Assembly: GCA_903858755.1 (NCBI GenBank)
Contig: CAIOKC010000008.1
Location: 1 to 39,354, forward strand
Reading direction: 5' to 3'
Length of the DNA stretch: 39,354 nucleotides
DNA from: an uncultured bacterium
GTDB taxonomy: Bacteria > Patescibacteriota > Minisyncoccia > Phycocordibacterales > UBA2100
The position numbers were made by a program, and so were the translations under genes. Below the pieces are notes generated by a model. That model was not told the DNA's origin, did not search any database, and worked only from the letters and a program-made list of their open reading frames with translations. Positions 35,616 through 38,901 of this stretch are shown here, piece by piece (the stretch's first letter is position 1; each line of letters opens with the position of its first letter).

Positions 35616-36155
35616 ATGAATGACAAGATTGTCGAAGACATTGATTTCGAGCCGGAGGACGAGCTTGGTGATCTTGGTGCGGCGAACATGAAGATGCGCA
35701 AGCTTCGCGATGAGCTTGAGAAGACGAAGAAAGAGCGGCAAGAATATCTGGATGGCTGGCAGCGATGCAAGGCCGACAGCGTAAACGCAAAGAAGGAAGC
35801 GGAGACCCGCGGAGCGAGGAGCTCGGAGATTCTTCGGGAGGCGCTGGTGCACGACATCATCCCGGCACTCGATAGTTTCGACATGGCGATCGGAGGCGAA
35901 GCATGGGCGACCGTCTCCGACGGTTGGAAAAGCGGCATGGAAATGGTGCACGACCAGCTCTTGGATGCACTACGGCGCCACGGCGTCGAGCGCGTCGGCA
36001 AAGTCGGGGAGAAAATCGACCACACAGCGCACGAGGTGCTTGAGGAGCGTGATGATGTGGCGGGAGAATCCGGCACGATCGTCCGCGTACTGCGCGCAGG
36101 GTATCGCTCTGGCGAAAGGGTACTACGTCCCGCGCAGGTCATCGTCAAAACATAA
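35616..36155 (+). CDS. grpE: Nucleotide exchange factor GrpE
   Basis: Coiled-coil N-term; ILREALVHDIIPALDSFDMAIG...GMEMVHDQLLDALRRHGVERVGKVGEKIDHTAHEVLEE...VLRAGYRSGERVLRPAQVIV. TATACT 6 nt upstream. Confidence 0.95.
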   Translation: MNDKIVEDIDFEPEDELGDLGAANMKMRKLRDELEKTKKERQEYLDGWQRCKADSVNAKKEAETRGARSSEILREALVHDIIPALDSFDMAIGGEAWATVSDGWKSGMEMVHDQLLDALRRHGVERVGKVGEKIDHTAHEVLEERDDVAGESGTIVRVLRAGYRSGERVLRPAQVIVKT

Positions 36156-36167
36156 TCACCGTCAAAC

Positions 36168-36192
36168 CTTGTGCAAGTCAGACTTGCACAAG
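36168..36192 (+). repeat. Left REP-like palindrome
   Basis: CTTGTGCAAGTC-A-GACTTGCACAAG. Confidence 0.95.
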
Positions 36193-36218
36193 ATGGCAAC
36201 GAATGAGATGATCGGTCA

Positions 36219-36923
36219 ATGCGGAAAGAGCCATTTTCAGTTGGATCGTTCGTACACATCATAAAGCGCGGAACGAAGGGGACTCCTATCGTGCGCGACA
36301 ACAGCGACAGGTGGCGTTTTCTCAAGTTGTTGCGCTACCTGAACGATGCGAAAGCGCCTAGAAATTGGGAACGAGAAATTACGAACGAACATATTACAAA
36401 GGGCTTTATACGCCCCGAGCATTGGTCTTCGCAAAGACCGTATGTATCCATTCTGGCGTACTGTTTAATGGACAACCACTTCCACCTCCTCGTACAAGAA
36501 CGAGAAGAGGGGGGAGTGAGTAAATTCATGCAGCGTTTATGTACGAGCATGGCGGCGTATCACAACGCAAAATACAGAGACAGCGGGACACTATTTCAAA
36601 GCGCATACCGCTCTCGCACGGTGGATAATGATGAGTATTTACAATATCTTGCCGCCTACATTCTCGTCAAAAATACCTTCGAACTTTTTCCCACTGGTAG
36701 TAAGGAAGCGATGCGGAATTTTTCTGACGCGTTCGACTTTGCGGAGTCTTATCAATTCTCGAGTTTGCCCGTTTTCTCCCGTCGTGCAGAGTCAACACTG
36801 CTCGATATGGATACCATAGATCAGTTATTTACTCGAGGGTCCTCATTCCTCAAGTCTGCAAGAGAGGTTATGCATGGTAGATACGAGAATCCGCGCCTCT
36901 ACGAACTTGCAATGGATTTATAA
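36219..36923 (+). CDS. Y1/HUH transposase, REP-associated tyrosine transposase (RAYT)-like
   Basis: YVSILAYCLMDNHFHLLVQEREEGGVSKFMQRLCTSMAAYHNAKYRDSGTLFQSAYRSRTVDNDEYLQYLAAYILVKN: HUH motif (HFH) and downstream YHN...Y region typical of Y1 transposases. Confidence 0.93.
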   Translation: MRKEPFSVGSFVHIIKRGTKGTPIVRDNSDRWRFLKLLRYLNDAKAPRNWEREITNEHITKGFIRPEHWSSQRPYVSILAYCLMDNHFHLLVQEREEGGVSKFMQRLCTSMAAYHNAKYRDSGTLFQSAYRSRTVDNDEYLQYLAAYILVKNTFELFPTGSKEAMRNFSDAFDFAESYQFSSLPVFSRRAESTLLDMDTIDQLFTRGSSFLKSAREVMHGRYENPRLYELAMDL

Positions 36924-36930
36924 TCGTGTC

Positions 36931-36961
36931 CTGCTTGTGCAAGTCTGACTTGCACAAGCAG
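36931..36961 (-). repeat. Right REP-like palindrome (31 nt; inner 25 nt is the reverse complement of the left copy)
   Basis: CTGCTTGTGCAAGTC-T-GACTTGCACAAGCAG. Confidence 0.95.
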
Positions 36962-36971
36962 ACGGAGGGTA

Positions 36972-36977
36972 TATAAT
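36972..36977 (+). promoter_or_regulatory. -10 box (TATAAT) of dnaK, just outside the mobile element
   Basis: GGGTATATAATCTC 53 nt before the dnaK ATG. Confidence 0.55.
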
Positions 36978-37029: not shown

Positions 37030-38901
37030 ATGGCAAAAATCCTCGGCATAGATTTGGGTACTACGAATTCCGCGATGGCTGTCGTCGTCTCGGGTGAGCC
37101 GGAGATTGTGGAGAATGCCGAGGGCGCGCGCACCACGCCATCCGTCGTCGCGGTTTCAAAGACAGGGGAGCGGCTTGTGGGTCTTCTTGCGCGCCGCCAG
37201 GCAGTCACAAATCCGAAAAACACCGTCTATCAGATCAAACGCTTTATCGGGCATTCTTTCGATGAGGCGGCGGTCGCGAAAGATCGCGCCGTGGTCCCTT
37301 TTGAGACCCGAAAATCGCCAAACGGCGGCATCGAGGTGAAAATGAACGATGCGTGGTACCGACCGGAAGAGGTGTCGGCAATGATACTTCAGAAAATGAA
37401 ACAGGATGCCGAAGCACGGCTCGGGGAGGCTATCACCGAAGCCGTCATCACCGTCCCCGCGTATTTCAACGACTCTCAGCGCCAGGCGACGAAGGATGCC
37501 GGCAAAATCGCGGGACTCGACGTCAAGCGTATCATCAATGAGCCGACGGCGGCGGCACTCGCGTACGGATTCAATAAAAAGAAGAACGAAAAGATCGTTG
37601 TATTCGATTTTGGCGGCGGCACATTCGATATCTCCGTCCTTGAGGTCGGCGACGACGTGATCGAAGTACGCTCGACCGATGGCGATGCGCACCTTGGCGG
37701 CAAAGATATCGACCAGAAGATAATGGACTGGCTTGCGGAAGAGTACAAGAAAGAATCCGGTATCGACGTGCGCACTGATCCTCTCGCGCGGCAGCGCCTC
37801 GATGAGGCGGCGGAAAAGGCCAAGATAGAGCTTTCGAGCGCGGTCGAGACGGAGATCAATATACCCTTCATCACATCGGATGCTTCTGGTCCGCGGCACT
37901 TGCTTATCAAAATGACGCGGGCAAAGCTTGAGGAGCTCTCAAACGAATTTGTCGAGCGAGCAATCTCTATCACGAAGCGAGCGATGGAATCGTCGCCCTT
38001 CAAGACCGGCGACATCAATGAAGTCATCCTCGTCGGAGGTCAGACACGCATGCCGGCGCTCCAAAAAGCTGTCGAGGCATACTTCGGGAAGAAACCGCAC
38101 ATGGGCGTGAATCCCGACGAAGTCGTCGCAATCGGAGCCGCAATCCAGGGCGGAATCTTGCAAGGCGATGTCAAAGATGTCTTGCTCCTCGACGTCATTC
38201 CGCTCTCGCTGGGCATCGAAACACTGGGCGGGGTCGCGACCAAACTCATCGAACGCAATACCACGATCCCGACCTCGCGCTCGCAGACATTCTCGACAGC
38301 ATCCGATAACCAGCCGTCGGTGGAGATTCATGTGGTACAAGGCGAGCGACCTATGGCAGGAGACAATAAATCACTCGGGCGATTCAATCTCGACGGTATC
38401 CCGCCAGCTCCGCGCGGCACGCCGCAAGTGGAGGTCTCGTTCGACATCGATGCCAATGGCATACTCACCGTCAAGGCAAAAGACAAGACGAGCGGGAAGG
38501 AACAGTCCATCCGTATCGAAGGTAGCTCCGGTCTCTCGGAAGTGGACATCGAGAAGATGAGAAAAGACGCCGAAGTGAACGCGGAGGCGGACAAGAAGAA
38601 GCATGAGCTTATCGAGGCGCAAAATGGCGCAGACCAGGTCGTCTATGCCGCAGAGAAAGCGCTCAAAGAGCACGGAGACAAAGTCAGCGAGGATATCAAG
38701 AAAGGGGTGCAGGAAAAGATCGACGCTTTGAAAACGGCGCGAGGTGGAAGCGACGTCGCGATGATTAAATCGGCAGGCGAGGCGCTCTCCTCAGAAATGA
38801 GCAAAATCGGGCAGTCCATGAATCAATCTGCTGGTGAGCCTTCCTCCGGAGAGCAATCTTCTCCCAACGACCAAGGGTCGCCGGAGGGATCCGCAACATA
38901 A
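37030..38901 (+). CDS. dnaK: Molecular chaperone DnaK
   Basis: [61 protein letters not shown], substrate-binding domain and Ser/Pro-rich tail. Confidence 0.99.

Follow-up and report, generated by a model that had tools for sequence, protein, structure and literature searches.

Rickettsia has been known since 2000 to contain protein-coding palindromes. The Rickettsia palindromic elements RPE-1, RPE-4 and RPE-6 lie in frame in conserved proteins including UvrB and DnaE, and the CGTC repeats, RPE-4 and RPE-6 among them, are apparently without a dedicated transposase; also on record are RAYTs bounded by terminal inverted repeats of other kinds and REPs located within uvr, dnaE and tRNA synthetase genes (PMC3733652). 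In RAYT/TnpAREP systems with REPs (REPtrons, including TIRYT), a resident single-copy gene with HUH and Tyr motifs is accompanied by inverted cognate palindromes, copies of which are dispersed and lineage-specific, and in-frame palindromes are known both within some RAYT genes and within other genes (PMC3733652, PMC6006769, PMC8266576). Vertical inheritance of RAYTs has been published (PMC8049555), subclasses without GTAG are known (PMC6006769), and TnpAREP enzymes cleave at CT or CA adjoining the hairpin (PMC8266576). Insertion sequences of the IS200/IS605 type (IS608, ISDra2) have a Y1 HUH nuclease, hairpin ends and a short cleavage tetranucleotide, which at the right end of IS608 is TCAA (PMC5934647).

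The window analysed here is a stretch of 39,354 nt, contig C8 of the source genome (G000; 0.75 Mb, 32 contigs). The features at its grpE-dnaK junction were as follows:

35616-36155, plus strand: grpE, the upstream neighbour (Pfam GrpE, E 1.6e-32)
36168-36192, no strand: left palindrome, CTTGTGCAAGTC-A-GACTTGCACAAG, with a 23-nt core at 36169-36191 that has seven further genomic copies
36216-36219, plus strand: TCAA, 36-39 nt from the left palindrome centre and overlapping the RAYT start codon; putative cleavage site
36219-36923, plus strand: RAYT-type Y1/HUH transposase of 234 aa (Pfam Y1_Tnp, alignments)
36907-36910, minus strand: GCAA as read on that strand, as far from the right palindrome as the TCAA, which it mirrors, is from the left
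36934-36958, no strand: right palindrome, CTTGTGCAAGTC-T-GACTTGCACAAG, pairing over 36931-36961 (arm 15)
36950-36977, plus strand: putative dnaK promoter, with TTGCAC (36950-36955) within the right palindrome arm, a 16-nt spacer and TATAAT (36972-36977)
37030-38901, plus strand: dnaK, the downstream neighbour (Pfam HSP70, E 3.1e-244)

The sequence scan and Pfam agreed with the original prediction of a transposase gene bounded by two palindromes between grpE and dnaK. Both 25-nt palindromes, CTTGTGCAAGTCAGACTTGCACAAG at 36168-36192 and CTTGTGCAAGTCTGACTTGCACAAG at 36934-36958, were perfect, and with up to three mismatches allowed they were the only matches in the window (0 expected from shuffles). 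Their A and T centres made the two flanking copies reverse complements of each other, as had been proposed. The central base does not serve as an orientation mark, since the orthologous element of G029 has A at both ends on the same strand. The TATAAT box began 13 nt past the right 25-mer and not 11; the longer TATATAAT begins at 36970.

We consider it highly probable that the locus is a REPtron-like unit, in which a resident RAYT-type Y1 nuclease and its cognate palindrome spread short palindromes in a Candidatus Kaiserbacteria genome. It resembles REPtrons in its single-copy resident HUH/Tyr gene, in its inverted, dispersed and lineage-specific cognate palindromes and in the presence of in-frame copies within RAYT genes and other genes. 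We call it REPtron-like because it lacks a GTAG foot and the Y---NP context and scores below the NCBIfam cut-off, although it appears to work like a REPtron. GTAG (GT[AG]G) at the hairpin foot was absent from the flanks of all nine genomic copies. The CGTC foot of CGTC-tagged REPs was likewise lacking; CCGTC, earlier suggested as a guide or recognition flank, adjoined only two of the nine copies and is best read as chance. In contrast to REPtrons with tens to hundreds of palindromes, only 3-7 solo copies were present here, mostly in essential coding sequence, and a CAA stood 36-37 nt from the palindrome centre. The original prediction was right in kind as to a RAYT-like gene with inverted cognate palindromes and dispersed copies, but not as to the centre mark or CCGTC.

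The RAYT product matched Pfam Y1_Tnp above the cut-off (E 4.5e-10). NCBIfam REP_Tyr_transpos (NF047646) matched at E 1.1e-8 with 35 bits, below its cut-off of 80. The HUH motif was His87-Phe-His89 and the putative catalytic Tyr147 stood in the context YILVKN, both conserved among orthologues in alignments. In the clade of this RAYT the Tyr context is YxxxKN, one residue longer than in the other RAYTs, in place of the Class 2 context Y---NP (PMC6006769); YIHLNP is the usual form in the remaining RAYTs of the genus. A PDB sequence search with the RAYT gave no match, the structure model had a mean pLDDT of 53.6 and no significant fold matches (the IS608 transposase appeared only at E 0.3), and PADLOC and PHROGs returned no hits. 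G000 carried 12 Y1 genes, all diverged, the nearest 44% identical to the RAYT at dnaK, and no second full copy of the latter. Two of the 12 (L015, L016) formed an outgroup with the context KYIERNP and had no palindrome pairs. Several RAYT genes (loci L023, L024, L026, L041, L042 and L254) also had their own palindrome in frame within the gene, for the most part in a variable loop that precedes HUH; in-frame REPs within tnpAREP genes have been published (PMC6006769), where the subclass 2.4 cases lie between HUH and Tyr.

Transposase relatives were present in 54 of 70 genomes of the family, with up to 15 apiece. A matching palindrome pair was found at 45 of 61 RAYT loci and at none of 68 non-RAYT ORFs, usually with one centre 25-45 nt 5' of the start codon and the other directly past the stop codon. 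Each lineage had its own version of the palindrome. Within the 14-row clade of the RAYT at dnaK (support 100) the hairpin tip was mostly GTCNGAC while the stems differed. Most of the 13 relatives sampled in the wider order also had palindromes on either side, as a rule with TCWGA at the tip; none of those with palindromes adjoined dnaK. The palindromes could form hairpins and one lies directly past the RAYT stop codon, as would ordinary terminators or chance palindromes beside an unrelated gene, but that explanation has almost no probability: a T-run is absent, identical copies lie within reading frames, and none were expected by chance. It is already contradicted by the dispersed copies, the in-frame sites, the control ORFs (0/68 flanked) and the loop enrichment described below. 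Close inverted pairs resembling REPINs, 2-5 nt apart, were seen in two species with a RAYT of the dnaK clade (G039 C6:35910/35936 and C29:2286/2314; G047 C25:28106/28131).

The 23-nt core occurred at nine places in G000, five with the exact sequence and four sharing one variant (TTGTGCAAGTTAAACCTGCACAA), two of the nine flanking the RAYT; the reversed control pattern was not found in G000. Among the seven other copies, five were translated in frame, in TrxB (VVQVRLAQGKDE), ValS (LVQVRLAQGDDE), LeuS (LCASQTCTNRQE), DnaE (VVQVKPAQQGHE) and UvrB (VVQVKPAQRGHA), one lay 3' of the dnaE stop codon and one upstream of a gene. The peptides predicted from the inserts were VVQVRLAQGKDER, LVQVRLAQGDDE and EKYSSQTAVF. 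The original prediction was to be abandoned if a lack of further copies went together with conservation of the transposase at this site in relatives; the site is conserved in relatives, but the prediction holds because the genome has these seven further copies. A second RAYT of G000 (C16, 44% identical) had the palindrome AATACAGCAGTCNGACTGCTGTATT, and all three of its solo copies were in frame, in MurC, RecO and PheT. MurC, PheT, ValS and UvrB were identified by PDB matches, whereas RecO, TrxB, LeuS and DnaE were recognised from the sequence itself, all but RecO being also aligned with relatives from the same query. Eight of the ten solo copies of both RAYTs lay in coding sequence, which is the share that a gene-dense genome predicts: with genes taking up almost the whole genome, a surviving copy will usually fall in a reading frame. 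That all eight were in frame points to selection. The five identical copies suggest that the palindrome may have spread fairly recently. The four variant copies matched the palindrome of the G016 RAYT more closely than that of G000's own. Elsewhere in G000, four copies of the C5 RAYT palindrome (ATCGACGTCNGACGTCGAT) bracketed about 1 kb (C3:3142-4318, L266-L271) in which no Y1 gene was found, possibly a lost or degraded unit, and a solo copy of the C29 RAYT palindrome (CCTAGGACACGCCGTGTCCTAGG) lay outside any long reading frame (C29:42291, L274).

Palindrome movement was deduced from orthologues, because no pair of strains turned up that was polymorphic or had a site empty in one and occupied in the other. 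Compared with genus orthologues, DnaE had 15 extra residues, UvrB about 17-18, LeuS at most 8, TrxB 3 and ValS about none, net insertion being evident in DnaE and UvrB and not in ValS or TrxB. UvrB showed a similar gap, of about 24 residues, against PDB 9gy7, and its insert would be consistent with a unit of 51 nt lying between CCAA and ...TCAA. The CAA-bearing tail in ValS, TrxB and LeuS looked native, and a simple 50-nt insertion fails to explain it. Either the choice of target may depend on a CAA at the distance seen here, 36-37 nt from the centre, or old sites may be continually updated.

A CAA stood, on either side, 37 nt from the palindrome centre in seven of the nine copies and 36 nt in the other two, against a background of about 0.15 per offset elsewhere. 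The shared asymmetric mark was [T/G]CAA, placed on the inner side at both ends of the RAYT element, and it may be the cleavage site. We had considered the CAA as universal to all RAYT families and rejected this, as it was found only in the clade of the RAYT at dnaK. In the mechanism that we propose, recognition most likely takes place on the single-stranded palindrome folded into a hairpin, via its conserved tip, and the enzyme would nick close to the CAA, which stands some 25 nt away from the foot of the hairpin. Short palindromic units mobilised in this way would then be copied or pasted elsewhere, and survivors would be restricted to in-frame copies in permissive protein loops.

The same proteins were used repeatedly across the genus. 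In orthologues of UvrB, LeuS, ValS, DnaE and TrxB, 17 strong palindromes lay in the five loops and one elsewhere, in twice the length; without G000's own five copies the counts were 12 and one. Many of the loop palindromes in congeners belonged to other families, and several had their cognate RAYT in the genome in which they lay. UvrB inserts of G057, G053, G018 and G021 matched 16-23 nt of the sequence flanking a RAYT in their own genome, with some of the UvrB-insert families common to related genomes. For G052 and G030 the match was partial, and for G013, G025, G033, G058 and the UvrB insert of G016 there was no match to the RAYTs sampled. G000 and G016 shared one ValS site, where each had the version of its own RAYT, decayed in G016, with equal CAA distance. 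These ValS versions and the near-zero net insertion in ValS and TrxB are the basis of a tentative and rather unlikely reading, that the sites in essential proteins track the resident RAYT, which would overwrite or home into existing sites and not only insert, the dnaK palindrome being a RAYT-controlled operator. A palindrome for which no cognate RAYT was seen, CCTGCCTGCGCAGGCAGG, was in frame both at the UvrB loop of G016 (L110) and in the DnaE region of G013 (L150).

The gap between grpE and dnaK was mostly 5-185 nt at the readable junctions of the genus. Four genomes (G000, G029, G016 and G047) had a RAYT there, with gaps of 874-923 nt, and a few others had unrelated longer gaps. The predicted insertion into a normally tight junction was borne out; it is not recent, as four species share the site. 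The RAYTs at dnaK were 53-59% identical, with one copy per genome at the site. The RAYT tree required a single origin at the site (1 change; 0/500 shuffles), with low support (56) for the four-RAYT clade and a close relative, G039 C27, elsewhere in its genome. In the DnaK tree, of which few deep branches were well supported, the four hosts were scattered and did not group. Old presence with repeated loss and transfer of the segment both fit these trees. The RAYT has the marks of a resident, apparently long-inherited single-copy gene, and transfer is possible given the scattered hosts.

G031 had a near-identical TrxB palindrome but lacked the RAYT at dnaK, as would be the case if the gene had been lost. 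This palindrome, the decayed ValS and LeuS palindromes of G016 and the low copy number would also suit a relic system that spread long ago, its enzyme now inactive and its inserts neutral fossils. We regard a relic as improbable, since an identical 23-mer stands in five copies in unrelated G000 genes and in each of the four dnaK-site lineages the RAYT has an uninterrupted frame with HUH and Tyr retained. Very improbable is an ordinary insertion sequence of the IS200/IS605 type, whose gene and both palindromes would jump together and leave solo copies as deletion remnants. The Y1_Tnp domain, the compact single-gene unit with hairpin ends and the TCAA, identical to the right cleavage site of IS608 (PMC5934647), speak for it. 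Against it, the element ends are inverted rather than direct, G000 has no second full copy among its diverged Y1 genes, tnpB is lacking, one origin at one site accounts for four species, and dispersed solo palindromes lie in frame in essential genes, which insertion of a whole element would have destroyed.

The REPtron-like reading makes the locus a REPtron variant with Rickettsia-like protein-coding palindromes, but with an identifiable transposase. As with RPEs, palindromes lie in frame in conserved genes and are absent from orthologues; the likeness is one of mode of occurrence, since the sequences are unrelated and shorter than RPE-1, and here a cognate transposase adjoins the palindrome. 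The apparent novelty lies in a combination: in Patescibacteria, a cognate RAYT goes with palindromes that are few in number and sit mainly within essential coding sequence, the copies have the CAA signature, and a site at dnaK is shared. No description of such a system in Patescibacteria was found in literature from which subscription papers were mostly out of reach, which is weak evidence of novelty. Protein-coding palindromes would here be tied to an enzyme that probably spreads them, and such a spreading agent, with repeated targeting of uvrB, dnaE and tRNA synthetase genes in an unrelated phylum, is testable with a 234-aa protein and a 60-nt oligonucleotide.

At the dnaK side, the -35-like TTGCAC of the right palindrome arm stood exactly 16 nt before TATAAT or TAAAAT in G000, G029, G016 and G047. 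The spacers had diverged among the four lineages while the 16-nt spacing was fixed, and many element-free congeners had a TTGACA box at the same place. A -10 box lay 14-33 nt from the 5' palindrome centre in 21 of 45 RAYTs (6.9 expected). The palindrome may act as promoter or operator, and binding of the RAYT at the dnaK and RAYT promoters is plausible. In our reading the gene is an old resident of the grpE-dnaK junction, and its right palindrome probably became part of the dnaK promoter. In G016, a solo palindrome with a CAA at the usual distance (L064, C11:23683) lay directly 5' of the start of a ATGGCAAA gene, which differs from the dnaK copy on C1 of that genome.
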